IMG/VR virus record: IMGVR_UViG_3300033571_001474 | Location: 1-20,909 of that record | Strand: one strand, 5' to 3' | DNA: 20,909 nt | Origin: a virus | Part shown: positions 2,794-20,909 of the stretch, in pieces | Position numbering within the stretch: position 1 is the first letter of the stretch | Layout of the letters: each line of letters begins with the position of its first letter | The notes under the pieces: model-generated | The model's database searches: none | Told to the model about the DNA's origin: nothing | What the model saw: the letters and a program-made list of their open reading frames with translations, nothing else | Made by a program: the position numbers and the translations under genes

Positions 2794-3594
2794 GTGTCAA
2801 ACGTCATCACTGATGCGGAACTCGTATCACAATTTGCTAAAAAAGCTATGGAAGAGCCTGAGGCGGTCATTGCACCGTCTCAGGCCCCTTCCGATACAAC
2901 TGTGGAACTTCCAGGAGGTTTTATAGATGAAGAAGGAGCTGTTATTAAAACGGCTGAGGTTCGTGAGCTTACTGGGGCTGATGAAGAAGCAATCTCTAGG
3001 GCAGGCTCTAGAGCTAAAGCTTTAGGTATCCTTCTTAATAGAGGCCTAGTAAAAGTCGGAACTAAAGAGGCAAGTAAAGAGATATTAGAGTCTCTTTTAT
3101 CTGGAGACCGTGACGCTATTCTAATTGGAATTCGTAAGGTTACCTTTGGTTCTGAAATGCCAGTCCAGGTCCGCTGCTTTAACTGCTCTGAAGAACAGGA
3201 CACCGTAATTGATTTAAATACAGATGTGCCTTACGAAGTTTTAAAAGACCCTGTTCAAGATAGAAATTGGATTGTAAAGACAAAGAACGGTAGGTCAGTA
3301 GCTGTGGCACTTCCTAATGGTGTTGTTCAGCAAAAGCTTATGGATAACGCAGATAAGACATCATCGGAGATAAATACAATGCTTTTATCTGGATGCATTA
3401 TCTCTATAAACAATAGCCCATCTATGGGTGCGCACACGGCTTTATCTTTGGGAATGTCAGACAGAACAAAAGTTATTGAAGAGATTTTAAAAAGAAACCC
3501 AGGCCCACGCCTTGGGGAGGTGAAGAAGCTTTGCAAGGCATGTGGAGAAAATATTCCTACTCCACTGAGCTTGCTTGATTTGTTTCAACTCTAG
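2794..3594 (+). CDS. Tail assembly chaperone candidate with zinc-ribbon cysteines
   Basis: The 266-residue product starts at a GTG supported by AAGGAG at 2780-2785. It lies between tube and tape measure, the standard place for tail assembly chaperones, which coat the tape measure protein before the tube forms. The N-terminal half has chaperone-like features: a VELPGGFIDEEGAVIKTAEVRE-type strand region, the TGADEEAISRA helix, and a run of short helices ending in DRDAILIGIRKVTFG. Two CxxC pairs (C128/C131 and C247/C250) could close one zinc site. This pattern also recalls T4 gp26/gp51-type baseplate hub assembly proteins, so hub assembly is the main alternative. The frame ends TTT CAA CTC TAG, and a second conserved-looking frame continues to 3736 (next entry), as expected for a frameshifted chaperone. 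Confidence 0.6.
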   Translation: MSNVITDAELVSQFAKKAMEEPEAVIAPSQAPSDTTVELPGGFIDEEGAVIKTAEVRELTGADEEAISRAGSRAKALGILLNRGLVKVGTKEASKEILESLLSGDRDAILIGIRKVTFGSEMPVQVRCFNCSEEQDTVIDLNTDVPYEVLKDPVQDRNWIVKTKNGRSVAVALPNGVVQQKLMDNADKTSSEINTMLLSGCIISINNSPSMGAHTALSLGMSDRTKVIEEILKRNPGPRLGEVKKLCKACGENIPTPLSLLDLFQL

Positions 3595-3736
3595 TTCATA
3601 TGACGATTTACTAAATCAATATGAGGTTTTAAGCAGGGCCTTTAACGGGTGGACTTTAACAGAGATTAAAGAGTTATCAGTTAGAGAAAGAAAGAATTGG
3701 TTAGATAGAGCAATGCGGTATATGGGAAGGAGCTAA
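3569..3736 (+). CDS. Out-of-frame C-terminal extension of the chaperone, by +1 or -2 frameshift
   Basis: The next frame is open from 3569 (after a TGA at 3566-3568) to the TAA at 3734-3736 and overlaps the end of the chaperone ORF by 26 bases. It encodes YDDLLNQYEVLSRAFNGW and then TLTEIKELSVRERKNWLDRA, a short helical segment typical of the second half of tail assembly chaperone fusions. It has no ATG start; the only candidate is a TTG at 3575 with no ribosome binding site. Within the overlap, TTT-C at 3583-3586 would let the Phe tRNA slip from UUU to UUC, a plausible +1 site just before the CTC TAG stop. A +1 slip (or -2, which reaches the same frame) gives a fusion of about 313 residues. 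The tape measure gene's AAGGAG (3727-3732) lies inside the last codons. Confidence 0.6.
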   Translation, partial: ACLICFNSSSYDDLLNQYEVLSRAFNGWTLTEIKELSVRERKNWLDRAMRYMGRS

Positions 3737-13853: not shown

Positions 13854-13871
13854 AAGTACTGATAGTGTGTG

Positions 13872-13888
13872 CCTCCCCTACAAGGAGG
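13872..13888 (+). promoter_or_regulatory. Hairpin covering the ribosome binding site at the tail/replication boundary
   Basis: CCTCC at 13872-13876 is perfectly complementary to GGAGG at 13884-13888, with a 7-base loop (CCTACAA); one more G-U pair (13871 with 13889) is possible. GGAGG is the Shine-Dalgarno sequence for the ATG at 13893, so the folded mRNA would hide it. This could lower or condition translation of the first gene after the tail module. The stem is short, so the effect is inferred. Confidence 0.45.
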
Positions 13889-13892
13889 TCCA

Positions 13893-14567
13893 ATGGACAA
13901 AAACTATGTGATAGTCGCTGGTAACGGCGTAACAAGTAGAGCCAACATAGAAGCTCTTATAGAAGACCATTTCTATGCTCATGGTAAAAACGACGATGAA
14001 GTAATCGTTGTTATCCCTTATAAAGAAAAAGCTAGTCAAGGTCAAGTCTTTGCAACTCAGCTTGCAAAAGATAAAAATAAAGAACTCATCGTCTACTCTG
14101 AGTCTGGCAAGTTTGATGGAATGCCGACCGCCTCAGTTATTGACGGGTCAATTGAGGATGCCGCAAAAGCATTTGCTAAAGAGAACACCCTTGCCTTTAT
14201 CCTGTGGTCTGATGAGGATGCAGAAACCCTAGACATTCTTAACGCTATGTCTGCCGAGGGTATCCCTTGCTTTGATTTAACCGAGGGCCTAATGAAGCTT
14301 CAGCCTTCCGACGGTAAGAAGGTTGCTAAGCCCGTAATCCCAGAACAGGAGCAGGTAAAACCAAAGTTGGAGGTAGTTGAAGATGGCGAAGATGAAGAGG
14401 GTGAGGAAGAAGAGTTCGAAGACGAAGACGAGGAAGAAGACCTCGACGAAGAAGTCTTGGAAAATCTCTATTACGGAATCCAAGCGGTCGCCCAAATCTT
14501 CGCGCAAGCCTTAGTAGAAGCCATGGGCAATGCCCCTGAGAAGCCTTTAAAGGGCCCTCAGACGTGA
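13893..14567 (+). CDS. Rossmann-like protein with a highly acidic C-terminal tail, function unknown
   Basis: The start is ATG 13893, with AAGGAGG at 13882-13888; a GTG at 13869 in the same frame is less likely because it lies upstream of that site. The product is 224 residues. Residues 1-140 alternate beta strands and helices (YVIVAGNGVTSRANIEALIEDHF, DEVIVVIPY, LAFILWSDEDAETLDILNAM, GIPCFDLTEGL), suggesting a nucleotide-binding-like fold with an early glycine turn (AGNG). Residues 163-190 contain 22 Asp/Glu out of 28. An Ala/Leu-rich helix (about 190-212) closes the protein. I do not recognise the family. It is the first gene of the replication side; the acidic tail could mimic DNA or bind a basic partner, but this is untested inference. 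Confidence 0.75.
   Translation: MDKNYVIVAGNGVTSRANIEALIEDHFYAHGKNDDEVIVVIPYKEKASQGQVFATQLAKDKNKELIVYSESGKFDGMPTASVIDGSIEDAAKAFAKENTLAFILWSDEDAETLDILNAMSAEGIPCFDLTEGLMKLQPSDGKKVAKPVIPEQEQVKPKLEVVEDGEDEEGEEEEFEDEDEEEDLDEEVLENLYYGIQAVAQIFAQALVEAMGNAPEKPLKGPQT
14525..14558. promoter_or_regulatory. Cluster of three palindromes just before the winged-helix gene
   Basis: Three perfect palindromic elements lie within 34 bases: GGGCA-A-TGCCC (14525-14535), CCTTTAAAGG (14544-14553) and AGGGCCCT (14551-14558), the last two overlapping. The winged-helix protein gene starts at 14564. Such sites could be operators bound by that protein or by a host regulator. They also lie inside the coding end of the previous gene, so chance is possible. 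Confidence 0.25.
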
Positions 14568-15400
14568 TTACAGGCTTGCCTCTACAGGTGTTACAGGAAA
14601 TGGCTAGACGACCCCGTAATCGGGGCGCTGAGCCTCTTTCTAAGGCCCTTGGAATCGGACGAAACCGCATCCAAGACGCCATCACCTACCTTCGTAATAT
14701 TGGGGCAATTGAGACAATCACCGTAAAGTTCGCAAATGGAAGCCCACTCAGAACCATCAACATTACTGATTTGGGCGATGAACTGCTGGGGCATACAGTC
14801 GGGGCATACAGCGGGGCATACATACAGCAACCTGAGCAGAATAGCTATATACCCAATATAGCTTATTCATATATAAGCAAACCGAATAGCGAACAGAGTT
14901 CGCGGGAGACACACGTGAGTGAATATTATTATGATGAAGAAGAGCGTCTAGAGGCTCAACGCAAGTTCCGTGAAAAACAGCATGAAGAAAAGCTTCAGGC
15001 TCATGAGGATAGGCGCCGTCAAAAGATGACTAAGCGCAACAGGACTAACGCTGTCCGTTGGTCGTCTACAGATTCAGCGTTTGAGTTCGCAGAGCAGATG
15101 CATGAGCTGTGGCATATTAAGCCGTGGCAGGTAACACGTAGCCGTTTTCGTTACGCTCTTGACGCTAAGCGCAAGGAGTTCAACACCGACGGTTCTATTG
15201 AGTTGGAGATGATGAAGCTTTTCTTCAGTCAGATTAAACACGATAGAAAACTTGTAGACCCTGAGATGGTTTGGAAGAAGTTCATTGTCCAGTTCCATAA
15301 CTTGCTCACCGAGGTCCAGCGTTCTAATGTTACGCCAGAAGAGATTGAAGTTATTAAAGAGAAGGCCAAGCGCTCTCTGGAATGGATGGATAATGTTTAA
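14564..15400 (+). CDS. Winged-helix DNA-binding protein, probable replication initiator
   Basis: The GTG start overlaps the previous stop (GTGA); there is no strong ribosome binding site, so translation is probably coupled. The 278-residue product has three parts. Residues 1-72 form a winged-helix domain: a VLQEMARRP helix, then LSKALGIGRNRIQDAITYLRNIGAI as helix-turn-helix, then a TITVKF...RTINITDLG wing. Residues 73-118 are a polar linker whose DNA carries direct and inverted repeats. Residues 119-278 begin with a charged Glu/Arg/Lys helix and continue as a helical domain (FEFAEQMHELW, KPWQVTRSRFRYALDAKRKEF). The helicase loader gene follows, overlapping by 8 bases. The layout mirrors lambda O followed by P, which suggests an initiator; a transcription regulator is the alternative. 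Confidence 0.65.
   Translation: MITGLPLQVLQEMARRPRNRGAEPLSKALGIGRNRIQDAITYLRNIGAIETITVKFANGSPLRTINITDLGDELLGHTVGAYSGAYIQQPEQNSYIPNIAYSYISKPNSEQSSRETHVSEYYYDEEERLEAQRKFREKQHEEKLQAHEDRRRQKMTKRNRTNAVRWSSTDSAFEFAEQMHELWHIKPWQVTRSRFRYALDAKRKEFNTDGSIELEMMKLFFSQIKHDRKLVDPEMVWKKFIVQFHNLLTEVQRSNVTPEEIEVIKEKAKRSLEWMDNV
14788..14821 (+). repeat. Three iteron-like direct repeats, GGGGCATACAG
   Basis: GGGGCATACAG occurs at 14788-14798 and 14801-14811, and GGGGCATAC at 14813-14821 (then ATACAG), with start-to-start distances of 13 and 12 bases. Copy 1 is read as L-G-H-T, while copies 2 and 3 are read as G-A-Y. The same DNA is thus kept in two different codon phases, which argues that the DNA itself is under selection. 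Likely binding sites for an initiator. Confidence 0.7.
14822..14905. other. AT-rich stretch with three perfect inverted repeats, candidate replication origin core
   Basis: Directly after the direct repeats lie AGCTATAT/ATATAGCT (14843-14850 and 14856-14863, 5-base loop), GCTTAT/ATAAGC (14861-14866 and 14873-14878, 6-base loop) and GCGAAC/GTTCGC (14889-14894 and 14898-14903, 3-base loop). Bases 14841-14880 are markedly AT-rich compared with the flanks. Iterons beside an AT-rich unwinding region are the usual parts of an initiator-dependent origin; in lambda this set lies inside gene O. An RNA structure acting on translation is another reading. Confidence 0.5.
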
Positions 15401-16082
15401 ACTTGATGAGCTAAAGATTCGTCGTCGCTCATGGGTTCAGATGGCTAACATCCCAACTGCGCGTCTTGGTTGGACTCTAGAAGACTGCACAGAAGTAAAC
15501 GACGAAGACCTAACCATGATTAGAAAATGGTTAGATGCAGTTAAGAACAAAAAAGTAATTAGAGCCGTTGGTTCAAACGGTTGCGGTAAAGGTCTTATGT
15601 TTTGGGGAACCCCAGGGCATGGCAAGACCACCCTGTCTTTGTCCGTTATACAAGAGGTAATGTCTACATTCCCCCTTGACGCCTTTGATGTTAAAGAGAA
15701 CGGCCCTTTGATTAGGCCTTGCTACTTTGCCACCTTCAACGACGTCCTAGATTTAAAGGGCGCCATGATGGATGGGCCAACGGATGACCAAGAGGTTATC
15801 TTTACAGGGATGCTGGGGGAGTGCCGAAATGACGCCTATAACATCAGAATCCTTGTTATAGACGATATTGGCAAGGAACACGCCAGTCTGAGCGGCTGGC
15901 AAAAAAATATGTTGCATCACGTTTTACGTACCAGATTCAACAATGGATTGCCTACCATTGTTACCACTAACATCGAGTTAGAGGATTGGGCAGGTCTATA
16001 CGGTGACGCTACAGAAAGCTTTGCTAACGAAGCCTTTGGCTACCTTCCAATTACTTCTAAACGTGGGGACCTACGCCGATGA
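15393..16082 (+). CDS. DnaC-like AAA+ helicase loader
   Basis: The start is the ATG at 15393 (MFKLDELKIRRRSW), overlapping the previous stop by 8 bases; the same frame is open further upstream but that part is read in another frame by the previous gene. The product is 229 residues. It is an AAA+ ATPase of the DnaC/IstB type: Walker A GTPGHGKTT at 72-80 (K78), Walker B ILVIDDIGKE with D157/D158, sensor 1 in TIVTTNIEL, and a C-terminal SKRGDLRR with candidate arginine finger and sensor. Such proteins load the DnaB-type helicase onto single-stranded DNA at the origin. The DnaB-like helicase is encoded three genes downstream and the probable initiator directly upstream. Helicase loader is preferred over IstB because there is no transposase nearby. 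Confidence 0.9.
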   Translation: MFKLDELKIRRRSWVQMANIPTARLGWTLEDCTEVNDEDLTMIRKWLDAVKNKKVIRAVGSNGCGKGLMFWGTPGHGKTTLSLSVIQEVMSTFPLDAFDVKENGPLIRPCYFATFNDVLDLKGAMMDGPTDDQEVIFTGMLGECRNDAYNIRILVIDDIGKEHASLSGWQKNMLHHVLRTRFNNGLPTIVTTNIELEDWAGLYGDATESFANEAFGYLPITSKRGDLRR

Positions 16083-16396
16083 GAGAACGCAACATGAGTG
16101 ATACCAGCAATCGTCTTGTTCAAGTATTTCTAAGTCAAGCGCAGACACCTGGACCTGGAATCTTTGAAGTTACTGCTGATGAGCCAGGAAATCTATTTTG
16201 CACATGCCCTGGGTTCCGCGGACGACACACCTGTAAGCATACTAAGTTTGTACAGGCTAGGATAGATAGCAACAAAGGAAACTATCCTTTGGAAATCTCA
16301 AGTCGTGCTACACGTGATGACGCTTTGAAAGCTAAAGAGTCTAATGATAACTTTCGAGAGTTCGTTATTAGGTTTGGAAAAATAGAGGTCTACTAA
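16079..16396 (+). CDS. Small SWIM zinc-finger protein
   Basis: The ATG at 16079 overlaps the loader stop (ATGA); an ATG at 16094 is an alternative start that removes five residues. The 105-residue product has a SWIM-type motif: C41-x-C43, eight residues, C52-x-H54, in the context LFCTCPGFRGRHTCKH. SWIM fingers bind DNA or proteins and are named after SWI2/SNF2 and MuDR; they often accompany helicases and recombination factors. The rest of the chain is a short beta-rich N-terminus and a charged C-terminal helix region. It sits between loader and helicase genes, and an SNF2-type helicase is encoded further downstream, so it may be an accessory DNA-binding factor. Its precise role is unknown. 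Confidence 0.8.
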   Translation: MRERNMSDTSNRLVQVFLSQAQTPGPGIFEVTADEPGNLFCTCPGFRGRHTCKHTKFVQARIDSNKGNYPLEISSRATRDDALKAKESNDNFREFVIRFGKIEVY

Positions 16397-16803
16397 TGCT
16401 CAAGGGGGATATCAGCAATGAGCTCCCACAAAGAATAATAGTAGTAGCCGACGTATTCTTAAATGTAGAGCGAACTGTAAAAAAGAAGTTTAAAGTTTTT
16501 CCCGTTGTCAAGGTTAATAAAACTACTAGGCGGGAAATATTAAGTTACCTGTTTCTATTAACTAACAAGCGCGGGGTAACTCTTGAGCTTGTTTCATTTG
16601 ATTTGTCTGAAGAAGAACTTAACGAGGTCATGCTTGTGCTTGACAAGATGGGTACTAATCCATTTAGATACTGCACAACGTACGACAGGTTTGAGCAGTT
16701 GGTTGCTGAACTTCCGTATAGACCTGAGGTCATAGGTGTGCTAGACATACCTACTCGATTACTACGATACGGTCACTGGGGATTGGACTTCACTGCGCTA
16801 TGA
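16396..16803 (+). CDS. Unknown protein, weak HAD-like resemblance
   Basis: The ATG overlaps the SWIM gene stop (TAATG), and an AGAGG lies just upstream. The 135-residue product has a Rossmann-like alternation: RIIVVADVFLNVE near the start, a helix with TRREILSYLFLLTNKRG, LELVSFDLSEEELNEV, YCTTYDRFEQLVAEL, and a final VIGVLDIPTRLLRYGHWGLDF. The last segment resembles the late motif of HAD-type phosphatases, where an acidic residue precedes a G-x-x-G-like turn. However, the catalytic D-x-D-x-T/V motif I is not present (VVADVFLN instead). It may be a degenerate, non-catalytic HAD-like protein or an unrelated Rossmann fold. Its place between replication genes suggests a part in DNA metabolism. 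Confidence 0.7.
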   Translation: MLKGDISNELPQRIIVVADVFLNVERTVKKKFKVFPVVKVNKTTRREILSYLFLLTNKRGVTLELVSFDLSEEELNEVMLVLDKMGTNPFRYCTTYDRFEQLVAELPYRPEVIGVLDIPTRLLRYGHWGLDFTAL

Positions 16804-18026
16804 ATAACGAAGCAAGGTTAATAAGCAAGATAATTGCTGACCGTAATATTGGTATAGCTCTTGAAAGCAGTGTGAACGAAAACTGGTTTGCCGATGCTGC
16901 AGATAAAAAGATATTTAGATTTCTACACGCGCACTATACAAACTATCAAGAGTGCCCAAGCCTTGACGTTGTAGTTGAGAACTTCCCTACTTATCAGTTG
17001 TTAGATGTTCAAGACAACATTCACTATCTACTTGACAAGTTAGTTGAGAACCGTAGAAAAGTTGCCATTATCCATACTATTGGTGAGGCCTTAGATTCTA
17101 TTGAGAAAGACCAAGACCACGAAGGTGCATTAACCGCTATTGAACGTGGCCTTATTAAGTTAGAAGAGTCTGGATTAAACCGCTCTAACGACTTAGAAAT
17201 TACTGAAGCGGCTAAGCGAGCTAAAGAAGAGTACGAGTTTAGAAAAGCAAACCCTGGGCTTCTAGGTATGCCTACTGGGTTTCCTACAATGGATGAGGCC
17301 ACCTCAGGGTTACAGGGCGGACAGCTGATTGTTATTGTGGCTCCACCAAAGACTGGTAAGTCAACCCTTGCTTTGCAGATTGCTTTGAACGCCCACCTTA
17401 ATGGCAAGGTTCCTATGTTCATGTCTTTTGAGATGAGCAACGCTGAGCAGAAAAGCCGTTACTACGCTATGCGCTCTAGAATCTCACACCGCAGACTTAT
17501 GACAGGTACTCTGACCTCTGAAGAAGAAACCCGATACTTCAAAATTGTTGAAGGCATTGAGCAGATGACAGAGCGTTTCTGGTTCGTAGATTCATCAGGG
17601 GGTCAGACTGTAGGAGCTGTAGCAAGTAAGGTACAGAGCAAAAACCCAGACATTGTATTTATTGACGGTACTTATCTTATGATTGATGAGCAGACTGGTG
17701 AGTCAAACACTCCTCAGGCAATCACTAACATTACTCGTTCTTTAAAACGTTTAGCTCAGAAAATTAACAAGCCCATTGTCATCTCTACTCAGGCTCTTAC
17801 TTGGAAGATGAAGAAGGGTCAGGTAACCGCAGACTCTATTGGTTACTCATCCTCATTCCACCAAGACGCTGACGTTATCTTTGGTCTACAACGCGAAGAT
17901 GAGAACGTAGATGACACTCGTCTGCTTCGTGTAGTTGCTAGTCGTAACGGTGGGCTTAGCGAAGTATCTTTGATGTGGGATTGGAACACTGGTTACTTCC
18001 GCGAGATTAGTGATGATGACCTATGA
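16800..18026 (+). CDS. DnaB-like replicative helicase
   Basis: The 408-residue product is a RecA-fold DnaB-family helicase that unwinds DNA at the fork. Residues about 1-110 form the helical DnaB N-terminal domain (early LISKIIADRNIGIALE, ENWFADAADKKIF). A linker leads to the ATPase: LLGMPTGFPTMDEATSGLQ, Walker A APPKTGKST at 181-189 (K187), FEMSNAEQKSR (motif H1a, with the usual S-x-EM pattern), Walker B PDIVFIDGTYLM with D289, IVISTQAL (motif H3-like), and the late HQDADVIFGLQRED with an arginine in the finger position. There is no primase fusion, unlike T7 gp4; a separate primase gene follows. The ATG overlaps the previous stop (ATGA), and the downstream gene does the same. Confidence 0.93.
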   Translation: MNNEARLISKIIADRNIGIALESSVNENWFADAADKKIFRFLHAHYTNYQECPSLDVVVENFPTYQLLDVQDNIHYLLDKLVENRRKVAIIHTIGEALDSIEKDQDHEGALTAIERGLIKLEESGLNRSNDLEITEAAKRAKEEYEFRKANPGLLGMPTGFPTMDEATSGLQGGQLIVIVAPPKTGKSTLALQIALNAHLNGKVPMFMSFEMSNAEQKSRYYAMRSRISHRRLMTGTLTSEEETRYFKIVEGIEQMTERFWFVDSSGGQTVGAVASKVQSKNPDIVFIDGTYLMIDEQTGESNTPQAITNITRSLKRLAQKINKPIVISTQALTWKMKKGQVTADSIGYSSSFHQDADVIFGLQREDENVDDTRLLRVVASRNGGLSEVSLMWDWNTGYFREISDDDL

Positions 18027-18949
18027 CACTCGAAGAGATGACAGATACGTTATCTCGTCTCGGCATTGAGGTATTAGATACTCGCGGGTACGAGATTAAT
18101 GGCTACTGTGCAGCTCATGAGCAGCGTACAGGACACGTTGACCATAATCCTTCATGGTGGATTAACGCAGACTCAGGCGCGTTCATTTGTTTTTCATGTG
18201 GATGGAAAGGCAACCTTTATACACTGGTTAGCTATATCCAAGATATCGAGTACACAAAAGTTGGGGATTGGTTAGGCTCTGCCGCTAGTCTTACTGCTCG
18301 CTTTAGTAGGTTAACTAACGCTATCAAGCGCAAGCCCATTGAAGATATAACTGTTGTTACTGAGTCTATGTTGTCTGCCTACACACAGGTTCCAGACTAT
18401 GCTCTTGAGGTGCGTGGGCTAACTAATAACGCGGCTCGTTACTATGGTCTTTTATGGGATGAGCGCGCTGGTAATTGGATTATTCCAATCAGAGACCCAA
18501 TCAATAACACTCTATTAGGATGGCAAGAGAAGGGCTTCTCTCATCGTTACTTTAATAATAAGCCTGCAAAGATAAAGAAGAGCACAAGTTTATTTGGATA
18601 CGAACAGTATAAAGGCGGGGACATGATTGTCGTCGAGTCCCCACTGGATGTTGTTCGTCTTAGTTCTATCGGTATTGATGGGGCTGTCGCAACCTATGGA
18701 GCCATAGTGTCCGCCGCTCAATTCAATCTCATACGTGGCGCCGATAGAATTATTTTTGCTATGGATAACGACGACGCAGGGCGCGCCTCATCCCAAGCTC
18801 TACTGGAAATGTGTGAGCAGATGGGTGTAGAGTGCTGGTTCTTCAACTACGACGGTATTGATTTAAAAGACGTAGGCGGTATGAGCAGGTCAGAGGCTTT
18901 GACTGGCTTATCAACAGCTCGTCATATCCTTAGAGGAGTGGCAAAATGA
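18023..18949 (+). CDS. DnaG-like DNA primase with zinc-finger and TOPRIM domains
   Basis: The 308-residue product has an N-terminal zinc ribbon (C29, H32, C56, C59; context GYCAAHEQ and FICFSCGWKG) of the CHC2 primase type, which recognises template DNA. A TOPRIM domain follows: VVESPLDVVRL with metal-binding E205, and FAMDNDDAGR with D248 and D250. A middle region with NWIIPIRDPINNTLLGWQ and FNNKPAKIKKS matches the basic RNA-polymerase core strand region of short phage primases. It is compact compared with bacterial DnaG (about 580 residues) and lacks the C-terminal helicase-binding domain. It would make primers for the fork driven by the upstream helicase. The ATG overlaps the helicase stop (ATGA). 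Confidence 0.92.
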   Translation: MTLEEMTDTLSRLGIEVLDTRGYEINGYCAAHEQRTGHVDHNPSWWINADSGAFICFSCGWKGNLYTLVSYIQDIEYTKVGDWLGSAASLTARFSRLTNAIKRKPIEDITVVTESMLSAYTQVPDYALEVRGLTNNAARYYGLLWDERAGNWIIPIRDPINNTLLGWQEKGFSHRYFNNKPAKIKKSTSLFGYEQYKGGDMIVVESPLDVVRLSSIGIDGAVATYGAIVSAAQFNLIRGADRIIFAMDNDDAGRASSQALLEMCEQMGVECWFFNYDGIDLKDVGGMSRSEALTGLSTARHILRGVAK

Positions 18950-19479
18950 TTATTGGATTAACTGGATACGCACAGTCGGGTAAAGATACTGTGGCTAATA
19001 TCCTTGTAGAGAATTACGGGTACCAACGAATCGCTTTTGCTGACCCCATACGTGACCTGCTATACGAAACCAACCCAATGCTAAAAGAAGGCTACAGAGT
19101 TCAAGGTCTGGTTGATGTATACGGGTGGGACAGAGTTAAAGTAGATTATCCCGAAGCTCGTGACCTTCTTCAGAGGTTAGGTGTTGGTGCCCGTAAAACT
19201 TTTGGTGACATGTTCTGGGTAAATCAGGCTCTTAAGGGCGTGTACCCAGAGGGTGACTTTGTTATCACTGATGTGCGTTTTCCTAATGAGGCTAAGGCTA
19301 TTCGATTACATGAAGGCTCTCAGATATGGCGTATTAAGCGCACAGGGTTTGATGCGGTAAATGCCCACGTATCAGAGTCAGCAATGGACGGCGAAAAAGT
19401 TGACCAAATCTTTCTTAACAGCAGTACAGTAGAGGACCTTAAAGTTCTTATCCAAACTAGGATGCGAGCATACGCGTGA
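18946..19479 (+). CDS. Deoxynucleoside monophosphate kinase
   Basis: The 177-residue product is a P-loop kinase of the T4 gp1-like dNMP kinase type, which phosphorylates dNMPs to dNDPs using ATP to feed phage DNA synthesis. Residues 4-15 (GLTGYAQSGKDT) form the P-loop with K13. The next helix and AFADPIRDLLYE match the family (usually F-A-x-P-L/I-R/K). RDLLQRLGVGARKTFGDMFWV is a substrate and lid region, and FVITDVRFPNEAKAIR holds the second conserved acidic strand (D-V-R-F-x-N-E). The length is normal for short members of the family. GAGGAG lies just before the start, which overlaps the primase stop (ATGA). Confidence 0.88.
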   Translation: MIIGLTGYAQSGKDTVANILVENYGYQRIAFADPIRDLLYETNPMLKEGYRVQGLVDVYGWDRVKVDYPEARDLLQRLGVGARKTFGDMFWVNQALKGVYPEGDFVITDVRFPNEAKAIRLHEGSQIWRIKRTGFDAVNAHVSESAMDGEKVDQIFLNSSTVEDLKVLIQTRMRAYA

Positions 19480-20909
19480 CCTTTACTGGCACCCTACTTC
19501 CATATCAACCAGAGGCTGTTGACCGCATGTGCGAGCGCAGCAAGATGCTGGTTGCCTATGACCTTGGTTTAGGTAAAACTGTTATCACCATCGCTGCCAT
19601 AGAGCGCCTTATGGATGAGAACAAAATTAAAGAGCCAGGTCTTATAATCTGCTTGTCCTCATTGAAATACCAATGGGCTAATCAGATTGAGAAATTTACA
19701 GATGGAACTTCAAAAGCTTTGGTTATTGATGGAACGCCGAAGAAACGCGCAGAACAGTACGAACAAGCGTTCGACTGGCGGAACACGGGGGTTGATTATG
19801 TCATCCTTAACTATGAGCAAATTGTTAACGACTGGGACAAAGTACGACACCTCCCACGAGGCTTCGTGGTGCTCGACGAAGCGACAGCCATTAAATCATT
19901 CAAATCAAAACGCTCCAAAGCCGTAAAGAGGTTAATCAATGCTCCGTTTAGATTCGCGCTTACTGGAACTCCTATTGAAAACGGTAAGCCCGAAGAGCTT
20001 TACAGCATTATGCAATTTGTCGATGCCAACGTACTTGGTAGGTTTGACATCTTTGATTCTGCTTTTATTGTAAGAAACTCTTGGGGGGCCCCACAGTATT
20101 ACCGTAACCTTGACACGCTTCACACAAAGATGAAAGAGGCTTCTGTTCGTAAAGCGCAGAAGGATGAAGACGTAGCTCCGTATCTTCCAGATACCATTCA
20201 CAAAGAGCCTATTAAGATTAGCTTTGACCGTAAGTGTTCTAAGTTATATACCCGTATTGCTGGGGATTTACTATTTGATTTAGATGAGGCTCAGGCTTTG
20301 TTTGGTTCAGGGTTTAATGTGATGGCCCATTATGGATACGCTTCACAGCGCGGCGGTCCAGAGGATGAGATGCGCGGTAAGATTATGTCTAAGATTGGCT
20401 CCTTAAAGATGCTCTGCTCACACCCAGACCTTCTTCGTAGTAGCGCGGCTAAGTTTAAATTACAATCAGGAGAAGGGTCTTCATATGCAAATGAGTTGGT
20501 TGATTCTGGGGCTCTTGATGGCATTAGCAATTCACCTAAACTGGACTATCTGGTCCAGTACGTTAAAGAGTTTCTTGAACAAGATGAGGCAAACAAAGTA
20601 GTTATTTTTGCTACCTATGTAGACATGCTTGACAAGATTGCTGAGGCGTTGGGCCCTGACCAATGTAGACTTTATTCGGGTAAACTAGATGCTAAGACTA
20701 AAGAGGAGAACAAGATTGCTTTCAATACTGATTCAAGCGTTCGTGTTCTTATTTCTTCCGATGCTGGCGGGTATGGTGTTGATTTACCAGCGGCTAACTT
20801 ACTTGTTAACTACGACCTTCCCTGGTCTTCGGGAGCCGCGGTCCAAAGAAACGGACGTATCAGAAGAGCTTCCTCAACCTGGCCCTCAATCGTAATTCAA
20901 GATTTATTA
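19476..20909 (+). CDS. SNF2-type DNA helicase (3'-partial)
   Basis: A GTG start overlaps the kinase stop (GTGA), and the frame is open for 478 codons to the window edge. It is an SF2 helicase/translocase of the SNF2 class. A Q-like LLPYQPEAVDRM precedes motif I DLGLGKT (29-35); then motif Ia LIICLSSLKYQW, motif II LDEATAIKS (D134, E135), motif III LTGTPIEN (T163), motif IV VVIFATYVDML, motif V LISSDAGGYGVDL and motif VI QRNGRIRR (457-464). Only the C-terminal end is missing. The protein would move along double-stranded DNA using ATP; in phages such enzymes assist replication, repair or recombination. Together with the SWIM protein upstream it may form one DNA-handling unit. Confidence 0.92.
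   Translation, partial: MTFTGTLLPYQPEAVDRMCERSKMLVAYDLGLGKTVITIAAIERLMDENKIKEPGLIICLSSLKYQWANQIEKFTDGTSKALVIDGTPKKRAEQYEQAFDWRNTGVDYVILNYEQIVNDWDKVRHLPRGFVVLDEATAIKSFKSKRSKAVKRLINAPFRFALTGTPIENGKPEELYSIMQFVDANVLGRFDIFDSAFIVRNSWGAPQYYRNLDTLHTKMKEASVRKAQKDEDVAPYLPDTIHKEPIKISFDRKCSKLYTRIAGDLLFDLDEAQALFGSGFNVMAHYGYASQRGGPEDEMRGKIMSKIGSLKMLCSHPDLLRSSAAKFKLQSGEGSSYANELVDSGALDGISNSPKLDYLVQYVKEFLEQDEANKVVIFATYVDMLDKIAEALGPDQCRLYSGKLDAKTKEENKIAFNTDSSVRVLISSDAGGYGVDLPAANLLVNYDLPWSSGAAVQRNGRIRRASSTWPSIVIQDLL

Follow-up and report, generated by a model that had tools for sequence, protein, structure and literature searches.

The window, by which we mean the whole stretch of 20,909 nucleotides analyzed here (IMG/VR record IMGVR_UViG_3300033571_001474), contains an initiator-like gene that is followed by a set of replication genes:

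14564 to 15400, plus strand: initiator-like gene, 278 aa, with a winged-helix domain (about residues 1-78), a disordered linker (79-121) and a helical C-terminal domain according to AlphaFold2
15393 to 16082, plus strand: DnaC-like AAA+ helicase loader gene (phrog_50, 8e-27; IstB_IS21, 2e-7)
16800 to 18026, plus strand: DnaB-like replicative helicase gene (DnaB_C, 2e-36; phrog_19, 5e-68)
18023 to 18949, plus strand: DNA primase gene with zinc ribbon and Toprim domains (profile matches)

The initiator-like gene and its neighbors

An earlier note, made from the DNA letters, had described a winged-helix gene followed directly by a DnaC-like loader gene, and both the structure model and the phrog_50 match bore this out. 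In the AlphaFold2 model of the initiator-like protein, pLDDT values below 50 are confined to residues 79-121. Foldseek matched the fold of the N-terminus to winged-helix regulators, with the N-domain of DnaD among the weak matches; for the C-terminal domain the search gave no PDB match, and none confirming loader binding. When 20 members of the family were compared with PHROG profiles, ten matched the DnaD-like loader phrog_186 (best 1e-5) and eight a replication initiation protein (best 3e-4), pointing weakly to DnaD-like and replication initiation proteins. The O-type families of Pfam matched neither the window protein nor any of the 20 members, and the 'O-like' phrog_678 was matched by only one of them (at 0.0025).

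The start of the loader gene (15393) overlaps the end of the initiator-like gene (15400). On the 3' side of the initiator-like gene the order is DnaC-like loader, SWIM-type protein, 135-aa protein, DnaB-like helicase, primase and deoxynucleotide kinase. Helicase and primase are phage genes here, whereas lambda uses those of its host. The small protein encoded within this replication module at 16079-16396 has a match to the SWIM-type zinc finger that falls short of the Pfam cut-off (E 0.003). Between its gene and the DnaB gene, a 135-aa protein is encoded (16396-16803) that is 70% identical in the related locus L007 and is without a Pfam or credible PHROG match; its location in the replication module suggests a role in replication. 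The gene on the 5' side of the initiator (13869-14567) codes for a protein of 232 aa with a long acidic tail, for which Pfam and PHROG gave no credible family match and which has a syntenic, acidic-tailed homolog in L007. Since the stop of this gene overlaps the GTG start of the initiator gene, translational coupling is suggested.

Elsewhere in the window, two overlapping ORFs (266 and 53 aa, 2794-3736) are located just 5' of a probable tape measure gene, where genes for tail assembly chaperones expressed through frameshifting would be placed; inspection by eye of 3530-3594 showed no classic slippery heptamer. From its translation, inspected by eye, a gene starting within 19476-20909 encodes an SNF2-like helicase/ATPase and runs past the window end.

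Close relatives of the initiator were found in seven viral contigs, and searches with loader alignments yielded 27 and then 73 loci, which partly overlap. The gene order is kept in L007, where it was checked in detail; a locus on the same contig, L039, is 63% identical over residues 88-278. A tblastn search with the window protein gave no match in 50,697 phage records, and among annotated phage genomes the initiator had relatives neither at the DNA nor at the protein level. The nearest loaders are those of Streptomyces phages, which are preceded by short hypothetical genes (compared by annotation alone). Bacterial genome contigs contained no relative, and therefore no host was found.

Repeats and frozen synonymous sites in the linker-coding region

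Inside the initiator-like gene, the following features were located:

14788 to 14798, plus strand: copy 1 of the candidate iteron, GGGGCATACAG
14801 to 14811, plus strand: copy 2, GGGGCATACAG
14813 to 14823, plus strand: copy 3, GGGGCATACAT
14834 to 14923, plus strand: block of frozen synonymous sites, the first part of which (14843-14888) is A+T-rich and a candidate unwinding region
14843 to 14863, plus strand: hairpin I, AGCTATAT-accca-ATATAGCT, with an A+T stem that covaries in most relatives
14861 to 14878, plus strand: middle inverted repeat, GCTTAT-tcatat-ATAAGC, which shares bases with hairpin I
14889 to 14903, plus strand: hairpin II, GCGAAC-aga-GTTCGC, with compensatory stem replacement across the family

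The repeats lie at the border of the DNA-binding domain, and GGGGCATACAG is 11 bp long and non-palindromic. The earlier note had claimed three near-tandem copies, 13 and then 12 apart, with copy 1 in a codon phase of its own, and both claims held: copy 1 is in phase 2, copies 2 and 3 are in phase 0. A 60-bp span with three copies of one 10-mer occurred once in the window and in one of 300 Markov-2 simulations. The repeats change together in close relatives. All three copies read AGGGCATAC in L002 and L005 (first G to A), a change that is silent in copy 1 and replaces Gly by Arg in copies 2 and 3; in L003 and L004 the fourth base is changed from G to A in all three copies, which is again silent in copy 1 and replaces Ala by Thr in copies 2 and 3. 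Residues of the recognition helix are altered in both pairs of relatives.

Synonymous identity was compared among 12 representatives in 15-codon windows, a comparison that the earlier note had proposed. It reached 0.89-0.95 in 14834-14923, against 0.42-0.78 elsewhere, with intermediate values of up to 0.84 at the block edges, so that the stretch is far more conserved than its flanks. Between the window and L039, 19 of 19 comparable codons are identical in the block and 56 of 106 outside it (p = 2e-5). The protein encoded over the frozen block is predicted by AlphaFold2 to be the least ordered part. Taken at the sequence level, the relatives support selection acting on the DNA of this stretch. 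Its extent had been put at 14788-14905, but conservation reaches to about 14923.

Iterons of the type GGGGCATACAG are limited to the closest relatives, and in the others the candidate site is loosely palindromic, or no clear one can be made out. The repeats and the DNA-binding domain vary together, since relatives without GGGGCATACAG carry a different domain. In most pairs compared, the DNA-binding domain and the candidate site form an island of divergence between conserved flanks. For L023 and L025, identity amounts to 91% on the upstream side, 79% within the domain, 100% within the element, 93% for the C-terminal part and 97% for the loader; for L029 and L033 the values are 86, 51, 73, 90 and 91%, in the same order. 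Exceptions are L040/L042 and L095/L124, in which the C-terminus has diverged more than the domain; L038/L078 show no contrast.

Loci without iterons (such as L120, L029, L033, L039 and L101) often contain a short dyad where the part coding for the winged helix ends, for instance TTTCTGG-gcc-CCAGAAA in L120, about 36 nt 5' of hairpin I, and GATGGG-agt-CCCATC in L039. This candidate binding site differs with the DNA-binding domain. The covariation of the palindromic site with the domain was set aside as evidence, because both lie in the same coding stretch and linkage alone could explain it.

Hairpin covariation across the family

The A+T-rich stretch 14843-14888 (about 72% A+T by count) adjoins the repeats on the loader side. 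Three perfect inverted repeats had been described for this region; all are present, each once in the window, but the middle one is not generally conserved in relatives. It was dropped because of its overlap with hairpin I and because L023, L039 and L029 have it in broken form. Folded as single-stranded DNA, the stretch reaches -12.5 kcal/mol, compared to -4.1 +/- 1.7 in shuffles (z = -4.9), and this fold contains hairpins I and II, the first and third inverted repeats.

MAFFT alignments of the element were out of structural register, and pairs were therefore counted by a script with the stems chosen first; a synonymous-shuffle test and a position control served as guards against bias from this choice. 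Hairpin II, which is located 43-46 bases past the AGC anchor in most relatives, was found with 17 distinct arm pairs. Watson-Crick pairs fill 99 of 102 cells, compared to about 35 expected with shuffled arms, and the remaining cells are two G-T wobbles and one A-G. The hairpin occurs in all three reading frames, and it stays while the linker peptide differs among relatives. The loops consist of purines only in 19 of 22 distinct hairpins, with GAA or GGA common, and the closing pair is C-G in only part of the family. Against synonymous shuffles, 17 of the 22 distinct hairpins have p < 0.05; the combined value of 4e-18, like the other combined p-value given here, is optimistic because related sequences are not independent and kinship was ignored. 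In the position control, the strongest hairpins of each gene concentrate at the site of hairpin II.

Hairpin I consists of AGC, often one extra base, five to six A+T pairs, a short loop and GCT. Its arms covary in most relatives (TATAT/ATATA, TATTA/TAATA, ATTTA/TAAAT and ACTTA/TAAGT with AGT/ACT). It is statistically weaker than hairpin II (combined 4e-6, synonymous shuffles, kinship ignored) and poorly formed in L096 and L092. As judged from the sequences of the family, both hairpins are kept by compensatory changes, and because their arms change in matching fashion, we suggest that the initiation of replication makes use of the hairpins as such.

A candidate origin embedded in the initiator gene

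The stretch from 14788 to about 14923 is very probably a replication origin of the phage, embedded in its initiator gene. This reading draws together the repeats, the frozen synonymous sites over a disordered linker, the concerted change of repeats and DNA-binding domain, the compensatory hairpins and the order of loader, helicase and primase genes. It is the interpretation put forward in the earlier note, and the comparisons proposed there, of synonymous sites and of repeats across relatives, mostly favored it.

Compensatory stems are equally typical of RNA and of single-stranded DNA, and the block might instead be an RNA element of the initiator mRNA, controlling how the initiator-loader transcript is translated or processed or how stable it is, or an antisense terminator on the other strand, with the origin elsewhere or at the iterons only. 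On the minus strand, a tail containing T follows hairpin II, and a terminator scan detects the hairpin; the first five bases of this tail hold one to four T, which is weak for a terminator. A plus-strand terminator was rejected, as no T run follows hairpin II. The G-T wobbles in only two of 102 cells are few for an RNA helix, no credible match to an Rfam family was obtained, and an RNA element would leave unexplained why the adjoining iterons track the DNA-binding domain. We consider this explanation unlikely. A role mainly in autoregulation, with the repeats as operator and the A+T-rich part serving the loader operon as a promoter or a region resembling one, is less probable still: the protein shares its fold with many transcriptional regulators and the site lies inside its own gene, but the region contains a single weak promoter-like match, fewer than in shuffles, the PHROG families matched are those of initiation and DnaD-like proteins, and a covarying hairpin together with a conserved C-terminal domain beside the loader gene fits an initiator better. 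That the protein accounts for the repeats and the conservation, through a peptide that is repeated and a linker motif that is conserved, is hardly credible, as the earlier note had already argued for the repeats: copies 2 and 3 both encode G-A-Y, but copy 1 sits in another phase, silent and non-silent repeat changes are concerted across the phases, the linker is predicted to be disordered, its peptide differs among relatives while the hairpin, in three frames, stays, and the conservation of synonymous sites contradicts it.

The origin reading was also compared with GC skew, which the earlier note had proposed to examine for a switch at this place. At the element, the GC skew of third positions goes up in three large relative contigs (-0.216 to -0.001, -0.101 to -0.026 and -0.144 to -0.056). 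The step is small in two of the three and falls at the late/early boundary, where structural genes give way to replication genes; it agrees with an origin but is weak and confounded by this change of gene class.

At such an origin, the winged-helix domain would bind the three iterons, and binding would strain and open the adjoining A+T-rich stretch. On the opened plus strand, hairpins I and II could form or persist and mark or shape a single-stranded entry site. The C-terminal domain of the initiator may then bring the DnaC-like loader, which would place the DnaB-like helicase, and the phage primase would start synthesis. The few wobbles, the N4-like purine loops on the plus strand and the precedent of the ABC primosome, where a hairpin directs helicase loading (PMC6127211), favor a role of the hairpins as single-stranded DNA, perhaps in the loading of the helicase, with a role in the mRNA as the less favored alternative.

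Several known systems resemble parts of this arrangement. In lambda ori, iterons and then an A+T-rich stretch lie in the middle of gene O, with loader gene P next (PMC7466680, PMC3349717). Here, too, repeats and an A+T-rich stretch are placed between the DNA-binding and C-terminal parts with the loader gene directly 3', and, as in Stx phages, the linker of the protein becomes longer with additional iterons (PMC7466680, PMC3349717). Lambda ori has four 18-bp iterons, each an inverted repeat bound by a dimer of the initiator, whereas the three repeats found here are 11-bp, non-palindromic and spaced by 12-13 bp. The lambda initiator belongs to the Pfam O-type, to which the present protein has no detectable homology, and the loader here is a DnaC-like AAA+ protein. 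In line with the earlier note, lambda-type sequences gave no match.

SPP1 oriL has direct repeats and an A+T-rich unwinding element inside the initiator gene 38, and separate genes for a loader (gp39) and a DnaB-type helicase (gp40) (PMC6316719). SPP1 differs from the present case in a second origin, oriR, and in the use of the host primase, and the description of oriL consulted contains no hairpin pair (PMC6316719); no sequence match to SPP1 was found. In the PLE satellites of Vibrio cholerae, the DNA-binding domain of the initiator likewise changes along with the iterons of the origin, and the remainder is conserved; there, however, the origin is intergenic, the element is a satellite and not a phage, and the initiator belongs to the RepA_N family (PMC8263062).

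A small hairpin of single-stranded DNA is the functional form in the early promoters of N4 and in the A site of the ABC primosome (PMC4496689, PMC6127211). In N4 the stems are short and the loops consist of three bases, with a 5' G and a 3' A as in many hairpin II loops here, but these hairpins serve a virion RNA polymerase (PMC4496689). The stem of the A site contains a DnaA box (PMC6127211), whereas the stem sequence is free to change here.

The embedded-origin plan is thus already known, and the joint variation of domain and iterons has its precedent in PLE (PMC8263062). In the open-access literature searched, we found neither a covarying hairpin pair beside lambda ori nor a hairpin pair of conserved structure and free sequence in an embedded origin. 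The best reading of these comparisons is an origin apparently built like lambda ori or SPP1 oriL, of unrelated sequence, in which the conserved hairpin pair is new. More tentatively, and with somewhat less than even confidence, we propose a family of origins in which the helicase-loading or priming site is set by the shape of the hairpin pair and not by its sequence, and is kept by compensatory mutation in a coding linker, while the adjoining site and the DNA-binding domain form a replaceable specificity module of fast turnover. The high variability of this binding module suggests that new specificities of replication are selected for, as in conflicts between satellites and phages.

Embedded origins are known from few cultured phages, and the present case comes from an uncultured phage group whose initiator has no detectable relative in the annotated records searched. 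If this reading is right, it would provide a sequence signature by which the origins of metagenomic phages could be located, together with a set of natural covariation data pointing to recognition of origin DNA by its structure.
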